A DNA stretch of 62,070 nucleotides from Gammaproteobacteria bacterium. Its GTDB lineage: Bacteria; Pseudomonadota; Gammaproteobacteria; DSM-19610. The translations under genes were made by a program, and so were the position numbers. The notes under the pieces are model-generated. The model worked only from the letters and a program-made list of their open reading frames with translations, was not told where the DNA came from and ran no database searches. This document shows positions 4,044-15,348 of this stretch, piece by piece. The stretch lies in NCBI GenBank assembly GCA_026197075.1, contig JAPHQV010000033.1:1-62070 (forward strand), read 5' to 3'. How positions within the stretch are numbered: position 1 is the stretch's first letter; the number at the start of each line of letters is the position of its first letter.

Positions 4044-4087
4044 GCCATACTCCTGCGTCACTGAGACATCGATCAACACATTTTAGT

Positions 4088-4142
4088 AAAAAGGGGTCGG
4101 TGACAAATGAGTCTAGTTATCATTTGTCACCGACCCCTTTTT
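4088..4142. repeat. 23-bp perfect palindrome (REP/terminator-like)
   Basis: Arms at 4088-4110 and 4120-4142 are exact reverse complements with a 9-nt loop. The core reads GGGGTCGGTGACAAATG. The A-run/T-run edges let it act as an intrinsic terminator in both directions; it follows the stop of the SLC13 gene (minus strand). The core resembles GGGGTC(A/G)G-type palindromes that accompany REP-associated tyrosine transposases in other gammaproteobacteria (recalled, not checked). Confidence 0.85.
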
Positions 4143-6070: not shown

Positions 6071-6375
6071 GATGGGCAAGGGGGTCCTGTGCAAGTCTGG
6101 TTGCGCCAATAATGAAAATGTCCCCAGGCGGCTTGTTTCCGAAGGAAACCTGCGTTAGCCAGCCAGGTCGCATCATGGTAGCCCGGGAACGCACTGGCGC
6201 GCCACCGTCCGGCTAGCGTGCATGGGTACAGCATGATGCGACACACCAGAAAGTGTACGCAGCCTCGCCTTACCGGTCGGGCTTGGCCTTCTATCGCGCC
6301 TAAGGAAAGCCGCCAGTACCAATTGAATGACCATGCCGGAGAAAAGCCTGTCGCCGCTGCGTTGCGCAGCGACCC

Positions 6376-6522
6376 TCATTTCTGCATCAGGTACTTGATC
6401 AACGCCGCCAGCAGCAGGATCACCACCACCCACAGCAGTATCCCGAGTCCCCAGTGCCCGAATCCGAAACCCCAGTGCCTGAATCCGAAACCCCAGTGCC
6501 AGTCACCGAAACCGTCGTGCAT
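6376..6522 (-). CDS. 48-residue Trp/Gly/Phe-repeat single-pass membrane peptide
   Basis: A small gene with a strong ribosome site (GAGGAGGGG just before the ATG). The first half is a short repeat of the unit HWGFGF/HWGLG (HWGFGF at 9-14, HWGFGFG at 16-22, HWGLG at 23-27), followed by one hydrophobic helix (ILLWVVVILLLAALI, 28-42) and a short basic tail (KYLMQK). It is 24 bp downstream of the Cu P-type ATPase on the same strand and so likely belongs to the copper operon. The His/Trp/Met content would fit metal contact or assistance to the ATPase, but that is inference; I know no characterised function. Confidence 0.7.
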   Translation of the reverse strand: MHDGFGDWHWGFGFRHWGFGFGHWGLGILLWVVVILLLAALIKYLMQK

Positions 6523-6546
6523 CGACCCCTCCTCGATATTCCTTTC

Positions 6547-8652
6547 TCATGCCGTGTGCGCCCGCGCCTCTTCCCGATCCACGCTCGCGCGCCCCGTGCG
6601 CCCGAGCAGGCGGGCGTTGATCGCGACGATGACGGTACTCACGGACATGAGCACCGCGCCCACCGCGGGCGTGAGTAGCACCCCCCAGGCCGCGGCCACG
6701 CCGGCGGCGAGCGGGATTGCGATGACGTTGTAGCCGGTGGCCCACAGCAGGTTCTGTACCATCTTGCCGTAGGTGGCGCGTGACAGCCCCAGCACGGCCA
6801 CTACGTCGCGGGGATCGCTTCGCACCAGCACGATATCGGCGGATTGGACGGCAACGTCGGTGCCGGCGCCGATGGCTATGCCGAGATCGGACTGGGTGAG
6901 GGCGGGGGCGTCATTGACCCCATCGCCGACCATGGCCACGCTCAGCCCGCGGCGCTGCACCTCCTTGATCTTCTCGGCCTTCTCCTCCGGCAGCACCTCG
7001 GCGAAGTAGTCGTCCAACCCGAGCTCGGCGGCGACGGTCCGGGCCACGGTGCGCGAATCGCCGGTGAGCATCATGCACTGAATGTTCATGGCCTTGAGCC
7101 GCTCGATCGCCGCGCGCGACTCGGGACGTACCACGTCGGCGAGCGCGATGGCCGCGGCGGGCTTGTTTTCCACCAGCAGATACACCAGGGTCTTGCCCTT
7201 TTCCGCGAGCCGTTCCAGGCGCGGATCATTGATCTCGTGCCCGTGCTCGCGCACGTAGCCAGGGCTCACTACCTTGATCTCCCGGCCGTCGACGTGCGCC
7301 TGCGCGCCGCGGCCGGTGAGATTGCGGAACCCGGAGACGCCCGGAAGCTTCAACCCGCGTTCCTCGGCTGCGCGCGTCACGCCCTTGGCGATCGGGTGCT
7401 CGGACTGGCTTTCGAGCGCGGCGGCGAGACGCAGGCACTCTTCCTCGGAGAGATCCGCCAGCGGCACCACATCGCTCACGCCGAAGCGGCCCTTGGTAAG
7501 CGTTCCGGTCTTGTCGAACACCACCGCGTTCAGGTTGCGTGCGCGCTCGAAGGCGGCGCGGTCACGGATCAGCAACCCGTGGGAGGCAGACAGGCTGGTG
7601 CTCACCGCCACTACCAGCGGCACGGCAAGGCCGAGCGCATGCGGGCAGGCGATGACCATGACCGTGACCGCACGCGTGATGGCGAAGTCAAGGCCCTGCC
7701 CCGTGAACAACAGCCAGGCAAGAAAGGTCAGGGTCCCGCCGCCGAGAGCGACGGCGGTGAGCCATACCGCGGCGCGGTTGGCCAAGTCCTGGCTGCGCGA
7801 GCGCGATTCCTGGGCGCGACGCACCATATCCATCACCTGGGCGAGGTAGGTCTCGTCGCCGGTCTTACGGATCTCCATCGTGATGGCACCCTCGCCGTTC
7901 ACGGCGCCGCCGATCACCTCCGCGCCTTCACCCTTTTCCATCGGCCGGGACTCGCCCGTCAGCATGGACTCGTCCAGGCTGGTGCTGCCCGCTACGATCA
8001 CGCCGTCGGTGGGTACACGCTCCCCGGGCTTGACCAGCACCCGGTCTCCCGCATGCAGATCCGCAACGGGGACATCCTCGACGGAATCGTCTTCGGCAAG
8101 CCGGTGCGCCTCGGCGGGCAGCAGACGTACCAGCGCCTCCAGTGCTCCCGACGCACCCATCACCGAACGCATCTCGATCCAGTGCCCGAGCAGCATGATG
8201 TCGATCAGCGTGGCGAGCTCCCAGTAGAAGCCCATGCCCGGGAACCCGAAGGTGACGGCGGCAGAGTAGACATAGGCCGCGGTAATGGCCACGGCGATCA
8301 GTGTCATCATCCCCGGCATGCGCCGCGCCAGCTCGGAGAAGAGTCCGTGCAGGAACGGCCAGCCGCCATAGAAATACACGACGCTCGCGCCGACGAACAG
8401 CACATAGCGATCACCGGGGAAGGTAACGAGCGGTTCCAACCCGAGCAGCGCCCACAGGTCGTGCGAGAGCGCCAGCACCGGTACGGTCAGGGCCAACGAC
8501 ACCCAGAAGCGGCGGCGGAAATCCGCCACCATGGCGGCGTGGTCATGCCCGCCATGTGCGTCATGTCCCGCCTGTGCGGACTTAGCCGAGTGTCCATGGG
8601 CGCTTGTGCGCGGTTCCCCGTGCTTATCATGCCCTTCGTGTGCGTGATTCAT
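6547..8652 (-). CDS. Copper-exporting P1B-type ATPase, CPH class (CopB-like)
   Basis: A 701-residue inner-membrane heavy-metal ATPase. In order: a His-rich N-terminus (ten His in the first 38 residues, no CXXC metal-binding domain), membrane helices, the actuator TGES (232-235), the ion-binding motif CPH (336-338) in helix 6, the phosphorylation site DKTGT (380-384), and GDGVNDAP in the nucleotide domain. CPH rather than CPC places it with CopB-type ATPases, associated with Cu(II)/Ag(I) export, rather than CopA-type Cu(I) pumps. It sits downstream of the thioredoxin-like and Met-rich genes in the copper island and presumably moves cytosolic copper to the periplasm for CopA oxidation. Confidence 0.93.
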   Translation of the reverse strand: MNHAHEGHDKHGEPRTSAHGHSAKSAQAGHDAHGGHDHAAMVADFRRRFWVSLALTVPVLALSHDLWALLGLEPLVTFPGDRYVLFVGASVVYFYGGWPFLHGLFSELARRMPGMMTLIAVAITAAYVYSAAVTFGFPGMGFYWELATLIDIMLLGHWIEMRSVMGASGALEALVRLLPAEAHRLAEDDSVEDVPVADLHAGDRVLVKPGERVPTDGVIVAGSTSLDESMLTGESRPMEKGEGAEVIGGAVNGEGAITMEIRKTGDETYLAQVMDMVRRAQESRSRSQDLANRAAVWLTAVALGGGTLTFLAWLLFTGQGLDFAITRAVTVMVIACPHALGLAVPLVVAVSTSLSASHGLLIRDRAAFERARNLNAVVFDKTGTLTKGRFGVSDVVPLADLSEEECLRLAAALESQSEHPIAKGVTRAAEERGLKLPGVSGFRNLTGRGAQAHVDGREIKVVSPGYVREHGHEINDPRLERLAEKGKTLVYLLVENKPAAAIALADVVRPESRAAIERLKAMNIQCMMLTGDSRTVARTVAAELGLDDYFAEVLPEEKAEKIKEVQRRGLSVAMVGDGVNDAPALTQSDLGIAIGAGTDVAVQSADIVLVRSDPRDVVAVLGLSRATYGKMVQNLLWATGYNVIAIPLAAGVAAAWGVLLTPAVGAVLMSVSTVIVAINARLLGRTGRASVDREEARAHTA

Positions 8653-8712: not shown

Positions 8713-8949
8713 CTACCGCCGTCCTGTGTGGCTGAAAAAATTTCGCAGATCCCCCTCGCTGGGCTGACCCTGGAACACCACACAGTCATCCACTACCAGC
8801 ACGGGGGAATGCCGGATACCGAGTCTCAGGGCGTCCTCCGGATGTTCCTCTACAAACATGAGCTCATAATCGATACCGAGATCGTGCAGCTCCCGCTCCA
8901 GATTGGGCCGGTGGCTACAGGTTTTCGTCGCTACAATCTGCACTTTCAT
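8713..8949 (-). CDS. Thioredoxin/glutaredoxin-like small protein (CSHRP motif)
   Basis: A 78-residue cytosolic protein with a beta-alpha-beta thioredoxin-like start (MKVQIVATKTCSHRPNLERE) and the cis-Pro equivalent in GIRHSPVLVVDD. The active site has only one cysteine (C11-S-H-R), so a monothiol or metal-binding role is more likely than dithiol exchange. It lies 60 bp upstream of the Cu ATPase, and similar small thioredoxin-fold proteins are commonly found beside copper ATPases. A role in copper hand-off or thiol repair is inferred from context only. Confidence 0.75.
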   Translation of the reverse strand: MKVQIVATKTCSHRPNLERELHDLGIDYELMFVEEHPEDALRLGIRHSPVLVVDDCVVFQGQPSEGDLRNFFSHTGRR

Positions 8950-9104: not shown

Positions 9105-9587
9105 TCAGCGACGCCGCATACGATCGCGCTCCTGCTGATGCTCCATCATCTGATCCATCATCATCTGCATCATATCCATGCGCTTCTGCATCATCTCGGG
9201 AGACATGCCCATGCCGGCGCCTTCTCCGCTCTTACCCATCATGTCACCTTTCCCATCCTTACCCATCATGTCACCTTTCCCATCCTTGCTCATCATGCCG
9301 CCTTTCCCTTCCTTGCCCATCATGCCGCCATCCATCTGCTGCATCATTTGCTGGCGACCGCCCATCATCTCGTGCATCTGACTCATGGTCTCGCGCATCT
9401 CCTTCATGTGCTGCTGCATGAGCTCCATGTGTTGGTCACTGTCATCGGTCTTCCGGGCCTGTTCCATCATGCGGTCCATTTTCTGCACACGTTCCTGCAT
9501 GTTCATCATGCCGCCACCCTGTGGTGCGGCCGATACCGTCATGCTGGCAACCATGAGCGTCACGAACAATAGAGTTTTCCGTTCCAT
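9105..9587 (-). CDS. Methionine-rich exported protein, probable periplasmic copper sponge
   Basis: A 160-residue protein with a signal peptide (MERKTLLFVTLMVASMTVSA, cut near AAPQ) and about 41 methionines. Met pairs and triplets occur throughout; residues 87-122 are four tandem 9-residue units of the form G-G/D-M-M-G/S-K-x-G-K/E, flanked by coiled-coil-like helices rich in Met, Gln, Glu and Arg. Methionine clusters bind Cu(I) in the periplasm (CopA, CusF and CopK families use this chemistry), so buffering is the likely role. Its place between the other cop genes supports this. No enzymatic motif is present. Confidence 0.8.
   Translation of the reverse strand: MERKTLLFVTLMVASMTVSAAPQGGGMMNMQERVQKMDRMMEQARKTDDSDQHMELMQQHMKEMRETMSQMHEMMGGRQQMMQQMDGGMMGKEGKGGMMSKDGKGDMMGKDGKGDMMGKSGEGAGMGMSPEMMQKRMDMMQMMMDQMMEHQQERDRMRRR
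9222..9329 (-). repeat. 27-bp in-frame tandem repeat (four units)
   Basis: Four adjacent 27-bp units encode the 9-residue Met/Lys/Gly repeat of the Met-rich protein. Neighbouring units are nearly identical at DNA level (for example CATCATGTCACCTTTCCC occurs twice), which suggests recent slippage expansion; the copy number may vary between strains. Confidence 0.85.
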
Positions 9588-9761: not shown

Positions 9762-10184
9762 TCACTCCGAGGGCCCAGGCCCAAGAGTGGGACTCTCGGT
9801 GCGCGGCTGAATACTTTGTACCTGCAGGGCCGTCAGCCCGTATTTCGAAAAACGGCCATGATCGTAATACAGGACATCGATCACGACCCCTTCGCCGTCG
9901 AATACCAGGGTATAGGTCCGGTGCCACTCCCGTTCCCCGACGTCATACAGCCAACCAGGCAAGCCATTGGGAAGGGTGAATTCCCTGTTCGCCTTGCCAT
10001 GATGCGAAAAGGCCGCACCCTTGCTGATGACGCCCAGCGGATACCTCGCCAAAATCTTTTCCGGACCCTCCTCCAGCGAAAAACCTGGCGGCATCTGCGC
10101 AGGCGGCTGCTGCGCCTGAACAAGAGACCCGCCTAAAACCAGCCCGAGCATCAACACCGGGATAACACCAATTCCCATCTTCAT
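9762..10184 (-). CDS. Small exported protein of the copper cluster, function unknown
   Basis: A 140-residue protein with a signal peptide (MKMGIGVIPVLMLGLVLGGS, cleavage near VQAQQ). The mature part contains LEEGPEKILARYPLG and YTLVFDGEGVVIDVLYYDHG, giving a compact alpha/beta layout reminiscent of small SmpA/OmlA-like or BLIP-like periplasmic proteins, but I cannot assign a family. The start at 10184 has GGAGG eight bases upstream and is preferred over an ATG 15 bp earlier, which overlaps that site. It lies between copB and the Met-rich gene. A GC stem (9698-9717) lies downstream without a T-run. Confidence 0.75.
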   Translation of the reverse strand: MKMGIGVIPVLMLGLVLGGSLVQAQQPPAQMPPGFSLEEGPEKILARYPLGVISKGAAFSHHGKANREFTLPNGLPGWLYDVGEREWHRTYTLVFDGEGVVIDVLYYDHGRFSKYGLTALQVQSIQPRTESPTLGPGPSE

Positions 10185-10283
10185 GAATATAGCCTCCATT
10201 TCTCAGCCTGCCGTAGTCCCAGGCACGTCGCCTCAATCCACCACCATCGCCATCTGCCACCCCTCACCCGTCGGCAGGTATCT

Positions 10284-11111
10284 TCAGAACCAGAAGCGCA
10301 GCCCGGCGACGAGGCGTGTCTCACTCGTATCTTCGCCGGCGGCTCGCGCCAGGTCCTTGGTGTCACCAAACGTACCGGCCCACTCGATCCCCAGGTAGGG
10401 AGCGAACTCGCGCCGGATCTCATAACGCAGACGGATACCGGCAACGATTCCGGAAAGGCCGGAACCGATGCCGAGTTCGCGGTCGTCCTTACCGTAAAAA
10501 TCCGCCTCGATGCGCGGCTGCAGAATCCATTTCTGGGTCAGCAGCAGTTCATACTCGGCTTCCAGGTTGAGCGCGGTACGTCCTCCTTCCCCGATATACC
10601 CCGTGGCATCGATTTCGAACCAGTAAGGCGCCAGCCCCTGCACACCGAAGGCCAGCCAGGTACGGTCGGGGCCTTCGCCACCGTCATGGCGGACGCCGAG
10701 TTGGGTGTTCCAGAATGCGGCCACGGCATGACTCCACAGCAATTCGGTACTGGCCTCCTCGAACCTGCCGTCATCGTATTCGCCCTCGGCCTTCAGCACG
10801 GCACGATCATAGGTGCCCCCGTACCAGGCCTGCAGGTCGTAGGCCACGGAGGTATTGCCGTCACTGCGCACCGCTTCGAACCGGTCCATCAGCAAGGAGC
10901 CGAAACTGTGCTCGTCCGCGAGCCTCAGCCGGTCCGGCCTGATGGTGTAGCCGCCGGAATAGGCATGCGGATCGCGCGCATCCGCTGGCGCCGAGCCGCC
11001 CTGCATCGACCCCATTTCCATTGCCGAGACCCCGTTCATGCCAGCCATAGCAAGGACAAGGAGTGTCGCTCGCTTATGTATCGTCGTTTGTTGCCGTCGC
11101 AGTGCTCTCAT
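10284..11111 (-). CDS. copB: Copper resistance outer-membrane protein CopB/PcoB
   Basis: A 275-residue outer-membrane barrel of the CopB/PcoB family. A basic leader and signal peptide (TLLVLAMAGMNGVSA) precede a short Met-rich mature N-terminus (MEMGSMQGG), then the conserved start of the barrel (LRLADEHSFGSLLMDRFEAV) and strands ending in LRFWF with a C-terminal Phe. PcoB/CopB works with the periplasmic oxidase CopA to sequester or export copper. The Met-rich segment is much shorter than in Pseudomonas CopB. Its ATG overlaps the copA stop (ATGA), so the two are translationally coupled. Confidence 0.92.
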   Translation of the reverse strand: MRALRRQQTTIHKRATLLVLAMAGMNGVSAMEMGSMQGGSAPADARDPHAYSGGYTIRPDRLRLADEHSFGSLLMDRFEAVRSDGNTSVAYDLQAWYGGTYDRAVLKAEGEYDDGRFEEASTELLWSHAVAAFWNTQLGVRHDGGEGPDRTWLAFGVQGLAPYWFEIDATGYIGEGGRTALNLEAEYELLLTQKWILQPRIEADFYGKDDRELGIGSGLSGIVAGIRLRYEIRREFAPYLGIEWAGTFGDTKDLARAAGEDTSETRLVAGLRFWF

Positions 11112-12871
11112 GCCACGACCACCTCACGGAACATGCCCGCGTCCATGTGATAGAGAATATGGCAGTGCCAGGCCCAGCGGCCGAGCGCGTCCGCGGTCAC
11201 CAGGAAGCTCACCCGCTGCGCCGGCTGCACGCTGATGGTGTGGCGGCGCGCCAGGAAGCGGCCATCCGGGTCCTCCAGCTCACTCCACATGCCGTGCAGG
11301 TGCATGGGGTGGGTCATCATGGTGTCGTTGACCAGGATCACCCGCAGGCGTTCGCCATAGCGGAAATGAATGGGCGTGGACTTGCCGAATTCCACGCCGT
11401 CGAGCGACCAGGTGTAGCGCTCCATGTTGCCGGTGAGGTGCAGTTCGATCTCCCGCCCGGGGCCGCGCGCGTCGAGCGGCCCGCCCAGGGTGTGGATATC
11501 GGCATAGGTCAGCACCTGTCGGCCGTTATTGCGCAGGCCGACGCCCGGGTCGTCCAGGTTAGTGCGTGGGAAATCGACGCGCATGTCGACGCTCGGGCCG
11601 TACTCGGTACGGGCGTGGTGAGCGCGCACCGGGGCAGTCATGACCATACCGGCGGGCATGGCGTGACCACTGTGATCCATGCCATCCATCCTGGTCATGT
11701 TCCCATCGTCCATGGCGCCCATCATATCCACCATGGTGAGTGGCTCTGGCGGATCGAGCGCCGGGACCTCGGCCTCCATGCCGGCCCGTGGCGCGAGCGT
11801 GCCACACGCGAAGCCGGTGCGGTCCATGGATTGCGCAAAGATGGTGTAGGCACGGTAGTCCTTGGGCCTGACAATGACATCATAGGTCTCGGCCACGCCA
11901 ATGCGGAACTCGTCCACCGTGACCGGCTCGATGTCCTGGCCATCGACATGAACGACGGTCATCTCGAGCCCGGGAATTCGTACGTCGAAGAAGGTCTGGG
12001 CGCCCGAGTTGATGAAACGCAGTCGCACACGCTCGCCACGGTGGAACTGGCCCGTCCAGTTGCCCGCGGGTGTGGTACCGTTCATGAGGAAGGTGTAGGT
12101 ATAGCCCGAGATATCGGCCAGGTCGGTCGGATTCATGCGCATCTGGTTCCACATCCTGCGCTTGTCCAGGGCATTCTTGAGTCCCGTGTCGGCCACGTCG
12201 CGGAAGAAGTCCCCGACGGTCGGCTGGTTGAAGTTGTAGTAGTGACTCAGCTTCTTGAGCTTGGCCAGTACCCGCATCGGGTCCTCGTCGGTCCAGTCGG
12301 ACAACTGCACCACGTAGTCCCGGTCGGCCCGGATCGCATCCCCGCGCGCCGGATCAATGATGAGGGCGCCGTACATACCCGTCTGTTCCTGGAACCCGGA
12401 GTGGGAGTGGTACCAGTAGGTTCCCGATTGCCGTACCGGGAAGCGGTAGGTGAAGGTCTCGCCGGGTCGGATGCCCGGGAAGCTGATGCCCGGCACCCCG
12501 TCCATCTGGAACGGCAGCAGGATGCCGTGCCAGTGGATAGAGGTGTCCACGGGTAGCCGGTTGGTGACGCGCAGCGTGACCGTATCCCCCTCGCGCCAGC
12601 GCAGGATGGGGGCCGGGATCGAGCCGTTGATGGTAGTGGCCAGGCGCGGTGTGCCGGTAAAATTGACTGGCGTCTCGGCGATGACGAGGTCGAATTCCGT
12701 GCCCGAAAGCACCGGTGGCGTGCCGGTGCGGGTGCCGGCCGTCTCCCCTGCCCGGGTCGGACCGATCCAGGGTGACAGGCCCAGCATCACCCCGCCCGCG
12801 GCCAACCCCTGCAGGAAGCGCCGGCGTGGCGGATCAGGCAGTATCAGGGAAGTTTGGCTACGGGATTTCAT
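11108..12871 (-). CDS. copA: Multicopper oxidase CopA (Tat-exported)
   Basis: A 587-residue periplasmic multicopper oxidase of the CopA/PcoA family. The twin-arginine signal is PRRRFLQG near residues 15-22. Copper ligand motifs are HWHG (113-116), WYHSHS (153-158), HPMHLHG (521-527) and HCHILYHMDAGM (569-580), so type 1 and the trinuclear site look intact. A Met/His-rich insertion (MVDMMGAMDDGNM... to HSGHAMPAGM) probably binds Cu(I). It oxidises Cu(I) to the less toxic Cu(II) in the periplasm. It is the first gene of the minus-strand copper operon, about 120 bp from the palindrome shared with copR. Confidence 0.95.
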   Translation of the reverse strand: MKSRSQTSLILPDPPRRRFLQGLAAGGVMLGLSPWIGPTRAGETAGTRTGTPPVLSGTEFDLVIAETPVNFTGTPRLATTINGSIPAPILRWREGDTVTLRVTNRLPVDTSIHWHGILLPFQMDGVPGISFPGIRPGETFTYRFPVRQSGTYWYHSHSGFQEQTGMYGALIIDPARGDAIRADRDYVVQLSDWTDEDPMRVLAKLKKLSHYYNFNQPTVGDFFRDVADTGLKNALDKRRMWNQMRMNPTDLADISGYTYTFLMNGTTPAGNWTGQFHRGERVRLRFINSGAQTFFDVRIPGLEMTVVHVDGQDIEPVTVDEFRIGVAETYDVIVRPKDYRAYTIFAQSMDRTGFACGTLAPRAGMEAEVPALDPPEPLTMVDMMGAMDDGNMTRMDGMDHSGHAMPAGMVMTAPVRAHHARTEYGPSVDMRVDFPRTNLDDPGVGLRNNGRQVLTYADIHTLGGPLDARGPGREIELHLTGNMERYTWSLDGVEFGKSTPIHFRYGERLRVILVNDTMMTHPMHLHGMWSELEDPDGRFLARRHTISVQPAQRVSFLVTADALGRWAWHCHILYHMDAGMFREVVVA

Positions 12872-13832: not shown

Positions 13833-15239
13833 ATGCGCAGGCCGCTCTCCCTCACGCTGCGCCTGACTCTGTTCTTCAGTATCGCGGCGGCCATCGTATT
13901 TCCCTTGTTCGGCTGGATCATCGATCGCTCCATGCAGCATTACTTCGACGAGGAGGATGCTGTCGAACTCGAGAGGATCACCAATATGGCACAGGAACTA
14001 CTTACCGACCTCCAACCCGGCGGTGAAGACAAGGACAGCGGGCAATGGTTTGAGGGCTTCCCGGCAGGACATCGAGACGCCCTGCTTCATATCGTTTCGT
14101 ACGACGGGCGCATACTCTATGCCAGCCCTGGGGTAAATCTTTCCAGCTTGGTGCACCAAGCCCCTGAACACACCATGACGGATCGGATTTTTCATTGGCA
14201 ACACGCGGACCACAATTACCGGGTGTTAGTCCGGCATGTGGATGCGAATCGCACGACGGGTGACGCGACTTACACGGTGATCGCCGCCGTATCGATCGAT
14301 CATCACCTGCGTTTTCTGCAGGGTTTCAGGCACAATTTGTGGCTTATGTCGGCCAGCGGCATCATCATCATGACCTTCATGGGCTGGCTCGCGGTACGCC
14401 AGGGACATGCGCCTCTGCGCCGCATCACGGCACGCATCCGGGAAACCGGTGCCAGCCGCCTGCGTACCCAGATTCCGCCCGGATCCCTGCCGGCGGAACT
14501 GGCCGATCTTGCCATCTCGTTCAACGAAATGCTCAGGCGCATCGAGGAGGCCTTTATCCGCCTCTCGAACTTCTCGGCCGACATCGCGCATGAATTGCGC
14601 ACCCCCGTGGCCAATCTGATGACCCAGACCCAGGTCGCACTGTCCGGCAAGCGCAGCGCGGATGAGTATCGTCGTATTCTCTATTCCAACCTGGAGGAAT
14701 ATGAACGTCTCGCACAGATGACCAGGGACATGCTGTTTCTGGCGCAGGCGGACCACGGTCTGAGCAGGCTGGAGGTATCAGAACTGAACCTGGACGAGGA
14801 AGTGCGGGCATTATTCGACTACTACGAGGCCTGGGCCGAGGCACACGGTGTCACGCTGGAACTGGACGGTAGCGCGACCATGATGGGAGACCGGCTGATG
14901 TTGCGACGCGCCCTGGGCAACCTCCTGTCCAACGCCATCCGTCATACTGCGCCCGGCCAAGCGGTTTCGGTGCACCTCACACCCACCGCCGGCGGCGAGG
15001 TCGAGATCCTGGTCGAGAACCCTGGCGCGATACCCACCGAACATCTTCCGAGACTGTTCGACCGTTTCTATCGCGTAGACCCGTCCCGGCAACGCAGCGG
15101 CGAAGGCGCCGGACTAGGCCTGGCCATCGTTAAATCGATCGTCGAAGCCCACGGCGGGACGATCGAAGCGACCTCCGGGGCCGGTCGAATCCGATTCCGG
15201 ATCAGACTTCCGGTTGCAGGCCCTGACCTGAATAATTGA
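13833..15239 (+). CDS. copS: Copper sensor histidine kinase (CusS/CopS type)
   Basis: A 468-residue inner-membrane kinase: TM1 (about 10-30), a periplasmic sensor loop (31-168), TM2 (about 169-188), HAMP, HisKA with phospho-acceptor H253 in IAHELRTP, and an ATPase domain with the N box around GNLLSNAIRH (362-371) and G box GEGAGLGLAI (423-432). The periplasmic loop is rich in His (for example LVHQAPEHTM and FHWQHADHNYRVLVRH), as expected for Cu/Ag binding in the CusS family. It would phosphorylate the adjacent CopR. The ATG is seven bases after the copR stop. Confidence 0.92.
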   Translation: MRRPLSLTLRLTLFFSIAAAIVFPLFGWIIDRSMQHYFDEEDAVELERITNMAQELLTDLQPGGEDKDSGQWFEGFPAGHRDALLHIVSYDGRILYASPGVNLSSLVHQAPEHTMTDRIFHWQHADHNYRVLVRHVDANRTTGDATYTVIAAVSIDHHLRFLQGFRHNLWLMSASGIIIMTFMGWLAVRQGHAPLRRITARIRETGASRLRTQIPPGSLPAELADLAISFNEMLRRIEEAFIRLSNFSADIAHELRTPVANLMTQTQVALSGKRSADEYRRILYSNLEEYERLAQMTRDMLFLAQADHGLSRLEVSELNLDEEVRALFDYYEAWAEAHGVTLELDGSATMMGDRLMLRRALGNLLSNAIRHTAPGQAVSVHLTPTAGGEVEILVENPGAIPTEHLPRLFDRFYRVDPSRQRSGEGAGLGLAIVKSIVEAHGGTIEATSGAGRIRFRIRLPVAGPDLNN

Positions 15240-15348
15240 TGCACAACGGCTTTAGTGACTGACACTGGGGGTTTGACTTCCATTCCTTGTCAAGTTACCG
15301 TCCACGGCTGTACAAACCTGTCCTTGATTCACCAACTCCACGGCCACA

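Follow-up and report, generated by a model that had tools for sequence, protein, structure and literature searches.

Positions 6522 to 6376 on the minus strand of the window (i.e., the whole 62,070-nucleotide stretch of DNA that was analyzed) carry a genuine gene that standard annotation would overlook. Judged by sequence comparison, its 48-amino-acid product (MHDGFGDWHWGFGFRHWGFGFGHWGLGILLWVVVILLLAALIKYLMQK) is a member of an as yet unnamed family of very small membrane proteins with a single helix, encoded in the copper-resistance clusters of many bacteria. The reading frame runs from an ATG at 6522 to a TGA at 6378 to 6376, and good Shine-Dalgarno sequences stand upstream of this gene and of many homologs. 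The dN/dS ratios of four homolog pairs were about 0.14, 0.14, 0.19, and 0.07; the frame is therefore under purifying selection at the protein level. A spurious frame or noncoding stretch in the GC-rich tail of an operon would fit the shortness of the frame, the missing aligned ATG in a relative of the same genus (G001), and the lack of matches in family libraries. This explanation was rejected on the dN/dS values (0.07 to 0.19 in four independent pairs), and the ribosome-binding sites and the residues conserved across many families also count against it; we consider it highly improbable. An earlier note on this DNA had described a small, easily missed membrane peptide in a copper operon with a strong ribosome-binding site. 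The first point is borne out by homologs across the Gammaproteobacteria and by the purifying selection; the second is borne out by a perfect AGGAGG at a distance of 5 nt from the ATG.

The peptide gene is the last of a minus-strand operon in the order CopA, CopB, a 145-amino-acid protein (p145), a Met-rich protein, a thioredoxin-like protein (Trx), an ATPase, and the peptide (Table 1). A gap of 24 bp separates the ATPase stop codon from the peptide start codon, confirming the placement of the peptide immediately after a Cu-ATPase at the end of the operon in the earlier note. By its CPH and MSxST motifs, the ATPase is a P1B-3-like Cu-ATPase. Genes for a response regulator and a histidine kinase form a divergent pair at 13.1 to 15.2 kb. 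The hairpin 3' of the peptide stop codon folded no better than shuffled sequence and is a possible but weak candidate for the operon terminator.

Table 1. Coordinates of the peptide gene, its parts, the copper operon of the window, and beta-propeller genes at loci of homologs
Feature	Sequence	Position	Strand	Basis or remark
48-aa single-helix membrane protein	Window	6376..6522	-	ORF, homologs, dN/dS
Shine-Dalgarno AGGAGG (perfect)	Window	6528..6533	-	5 nt 5' of peptide ATG
His/Trp/Gly/Phe N-terminal segment, residues 1-23, predicted periplasmic	Window	6454..6522	-	Charges, model, alignment
Predicted transmembrane helix, residues 24-42	Window	6397..6453	-	Hydropathy, model, charges
21-bp tandem duplication (repeated HWGFGF)	Window	6457..6498	-	
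Diverged third unit, HWGLGI	Window	6436-6456	-	
Hairpin, then AGGCTTTTCT (short T run)	Window	6350..6373	-	Directly 3' of peptide stop
Heavy-metal P-type ATPase, 701 aa, His-rich N-terminus	Window	6547..8652	-	CPH and MSxST motifs
Small thioredoxin/glutaredoxin-like protein	Window	8713..8949	-	PF13192
Met-rich repeat protein	Window	9105..9587	-	No Pfam family
145-aa uncharacterized copper-island protein (p145)	Window	9762..10199	-	
CopB outer-membrane copper protein	Window	10284..11111	-	PF05275
CopA multicopper oxidase	Window	11108..12871	-	TIGR01480
Decayed second copy of peptide gene	Window	15239..15280	+	33/42 bases identical to peptide gene start
YncE-like beta-propeller gene downstream of short peptide	L026	8419-9486		
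YncE-like beta-propeller gene downstream of short peptide	L028	2218-3276		
YncE-like beta-propeller gene downstream of short peptide	L033	3717-4820		
YncE-like beta-propeller gene downstream of short peptide	L035	9358-10413		
YncE-like beta-propeller gene downstream of short peptide	L093	9050-10138		
YncE-like beta-propeller gene downstream of short peptide	L098	7381-8430		
YncE-like beta-propeller gene downstream of short peptide	L114	9087-10139		

The sequence following the histidine-kinase gene indicates that this copper island formerly carried two copies of the peptide gene. The decayed copy (ATGCACAACGGCTTTAGTGACTGACACTGGGGGTTTGACTTC) begins with an ATG that overlaps the histidine-kinase stop codon, and its frame meets an in-frame TGA after 7 codons; its match to the peptide gene scored 24, against 11 or less in 300 shuffles. 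Genome G249 likewise contains a broken second copy (L125).

Single-sequence searching under permissive settings gave matches in 21 of 144 relatives, the weakest of which were at chance level. With a profile, a significant match was obtained in 44 of 370 genomes of the class (SHOCT-bearing forms, described below, included) and in 8 of 397 genomes of a phylum-wide sample. About 30 of the homologs are short forms, mostly from Gammaproteobacteria. The window peptide had no match in Pfam, NCBIfam, or PHROGs, and 24 short homologs gave only chance-level matches to library models (PHROGs, NCBIfam, Pfam, and PDB). A plasmid-wide tblastn search with the peptide and its G062 homolog as queries returned nothing; the BLAST low-complexity filter probably masks such sequences. 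A scan of the genome_contigs set yielded 5 loci, all of them in genomes already among the matches and entered there by their public names. Nor was a description of the short-peptide family found in open-licence papers on SHOCT and copper, small proteins of copper operons, or P1B-3 accessory proteins. The homolog from the same genus (G001; L025, positions 2866-2988) has AGG where the aligned ATG stands, and this copy therefore either uses another start or is failing. In G001, the ATPase is a different one and comes after the peptide instead of ahead of it, so that the gene order departs from that of the window.

The peptide contains one hydrophobic segment of 19 residues (mean hydropathy, 2.8), and AlphaFold2 modeled a single helix (residues 21 to 47) with a high-confidence core and a low-confidence N-terminus, in agreement with the single membrane helix claimed previously. 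Across the 24 short forms, the mean charge was -1.25 for the N-terminal part and +1.96 for the C-terminal tail, and the charge pattern was of the N-out type in 23; the N-terminus is thus predicted to be periplasmic and the short Lys/Arg tail cytoplasmic. Alignment of these forms revealed a conserved M-H or M-M-H start with a Trp shortly after it, G-x-G-H-W (or G-H-G) ahead of the helix, and a Trp inside the helix followed by a Lys-Tyr-rich end; none of the 24 contains Cys. The window peptide has the complete set of family features (M(M)H start, Trp, G-x-G-H-W, transmembrane Trp, and K-Y tail, with no SHOCT domain). A His at position 2 or 3 was present in 25 of 31 short forms and in 5 of 23 SHOCT forms; this comparison is circular in part, since MH-bearing members had gone into the search profile. 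Divergent members without the N-terminal His also occur (e.g., MMDGTG in L033).

The HWGFGF repeat reflects a local duplication event and is not a family trait. A tandem duplication of 21 bp, whose copies agree at 20 of 21 bases, produced its two exact units, and the same-genus G001 and the other homologs lack one of the units (the one-unit form of the N-terminal segment is MMHEMNDWHWGFGFGHW). The motif had been called triplicated, which holds for two units and is generous for the diverged third.

The short family is linked to copper islands. For each match, copper genes were mapped in some 18 kb of surrounding sequence (or in the entire contig), with markers counted within about 9 kb; 31 short forms entered the count after the exclusion of L118 (which carries SHOCT) and L125 (broken). 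CopA, CopB, or a Cu-ATPase was near 19 of the 31 short forms and none of 20 control regions drawn from their genomes (P = 3e-6). When RND metal-efflux genes were counted too, the figures were 25 of 31 and 0 of 20 (P = 3e-9); these P values are rough, the sequences being related. The other 6 short homologs had no marker, some of them owing to contig ends. At the genome level, CopA was present in 15 of 24 genomes with a short form versus 103 of 346 others (P = 0.001). Typical neighbors were DUF2933, ICMT, cytochrome c, and LTXXQ/Metal_resist proteins and Met-rich proteins related to that of the window, and the immediate neighbors were largely secreted or envelope proteins. A YncE-like beta-propeller gene occurred in 10 of 27 loci, directly downstream of the peptide in 9, and in none of the 20 controls; the propeller is likely a functional partner of the short peptide. 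The genome to which the window belongs gave no match for it.

In our best reading, to which we give an even chance, the peptide is a small inner-membrane, periplasm-facing accessory of copper-resistance islands, i.e., a membrane-anchored copper-binding peptide or acceptor. We infer copper binding and hand-over by analogy. CusF binds Cu(I) with a His-Met-Trp set, and a His2 close to a free N-terminus is reminiscent of copper sites of the Xaa-His or Xaa-Xaa-His kind. ATCUN/Xaa-His sites (such as that of human Ctr1 at its N-terminus) share with the peptide a free N-terminus and a His at position 2 or 3, which in the peptide is predicted to be extracytoplasmic; the likeness to Ctr1-type sites is one of chemistry, not homology. 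In the membrane, the N-terminus of the peptide would face the periplasm and its Lys/Arg tail the cytoplasm, and the exposed segment (Met-His or Met-Met-His through Gly-x-Gly-His-Trp at the membrane surface) would bind copper, with the free amine plus His2/3, and also Met, Trp, and the second His, as candidate ligands. Anchored in the membrane next to the exporter, the peptide could then accept copper or serve as the point of its hand-over, passing it to periplasmic partners such as the CopA oxidase, CopB, the Met-rich protein, the YncE-like propeller, and Cus-type pumps. A sharper version is tentative and, in our estimate, clearly less likely than not: that the tiny N-out family has its copper site in the free Met-His N-terminus plus the membrane-surface His-Trp and provides a periplasmic hand-over point that can serve CPC ATPases, CPH ATPases, and RND pumps interchangeably.

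The earlier note had instead suggested that the peptide could regulate the ATPase, as short peptides do for other P-type pumps. The family did prove to be conserved in other copper islands, but a CPH partner was confined to the window's genus and the repeat is not general. Among 15 short-form loci with a recognizable full-length Cu-ATPase, the partner was of the CPC type in 13 and of the CPH type only in the window and G001. The peptide precedes or follows the ATPase or adjoins CopB, beta-propeller, cytochrome c, or RND genes, and several loci have no ATPase within about 9 kb, some having RND efflux genes alone. A dedicated regulator of the CPH ATPase is unsupported because the partner switches between CPC and CPH and some loci are RND only, and a dedicated P1B-3 (CPH) subunit was rejected for its inconsistent genetic partnership. 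Together with the variable position, this switching argues against a regulator of one pump, not against a general partner of pumps. KdpF and phospholamban-type peptides are small regulators of other P-type pumps, and a subunit of this kind, binding the Cu-ATPase in the membrane and tuning or stabilizing it, would suit the position of the gene just after the ATPase in the window, 11 bp before one in L097, and 75 bp after one in L108, as well as a helix that could pack against the pump through its conserved Trp and Lys-Tyr. Like KdpF and similar regulators, the window peptide is tiny, single-helix, and encoded beside a P-type pump; unlike KdpF (by its description), the short family keeps to no single pump type and conserves residues outside the helix, i.e., in the N-terminal segment. 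With the place relative to the pump also not fixed and only RND genes near several loci, we regard a pump-binding subunit as unlikely. CcoS/FixS proteins resemble the window peptide in size (about 50 aa), in their one helix, and in their position beside a Cu-ATPase (CcoI), but the short family is linked to copper resistance genes and not to cbb3 oxidase assembly, and neither the window peptide nor other members matched a CcoS/FixS model in Pfam or NCBIfam.

The relatives carrying SHOCT bear on another possibility, namely, that the short form is a SHOCT-less version serving in the membrane as a scaffold or stress anchor, which would recruit other envelope proteins and bind no copper itself. Longer homologs (74 to 89 aa) have the same N-terminal segment and helix followed by a C-terminal PF09851 domain. 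The short-form profile found SHOCT-bearing L032 at 1.3e-14, although L032 was outside the profile, and L104 at 1.3e-10; L032 (SNWHWGFGFGHWIFGVLFW) differs little from the short forms, and the N-terminal half is homologous between the two types. Small SHOCT membrane proteins encoded next to copper ATPases, which carry the annotation "SHOCT domain-containing protein," also share the Gly/aromatic segment, single helix, and copper-island setting (e.g., on the Halomonas KO116 plasmid). The short family differs in ending right after the helix, in lacking SHOCT (no PF09851 match at the gathering score in the window peptide or the 24 short homologs), and in keeping the N-terminal Met-His and premembrane Gly-His-Trp. 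A point against the copper-binding reading is that N-terminal segments rich in aromatic residues often occur at membrane interfaces, so that the His and Trp could do no more than anchor the peptide. Against a scaffold, the two His and the Trp are kept in short forms and mostly missing at the N-terminus of SHOCT forms, and SHOCT did not behave as an oligomerization unit when tested as such, in a paper that does not mention copper (PMC3581485). A SHOCT membrane protein of a haloarchaeon is silver induced (PMC10694973). On this evidence, the scaffold is rather unlikely. The CopQ family of Cupriavidus also occurs in cop clusters, and CopQ is copper induced; by description it is set apart by an N-terminal signal peptide, whereas the helix of the short family forms its C-terminal half (PMC7563307).

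Although copper-resistance operons have been studied in depth, the family libraries tested do not contain this recurrent peptide. If the peptide does bind copper at the membrane face, as in the accessory-peptide reading, it would supply a missing step in the route of the exported ion from the pump in the inner membrane to the periplasmic oxidases or efflux systems.

Other features of the window deserve mention. The CopA and CopB reading frames share 4 bases (11108-11111), which suggests translational coupling. The 145-amino-acid protein, which has no family, recurs beside copper genes in G001, L113, and L123, and the Met-rich protein contains MMGKDGKGD-type repeats and has relatives near the peptide in several other copper islands. 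A near-perfect inverted repeat (AAAAAGGGGTCGGTGACAAATGA / TCATTTGTCACCGACCCCTTTTTT) lies between two genes at positions 4087-4141.
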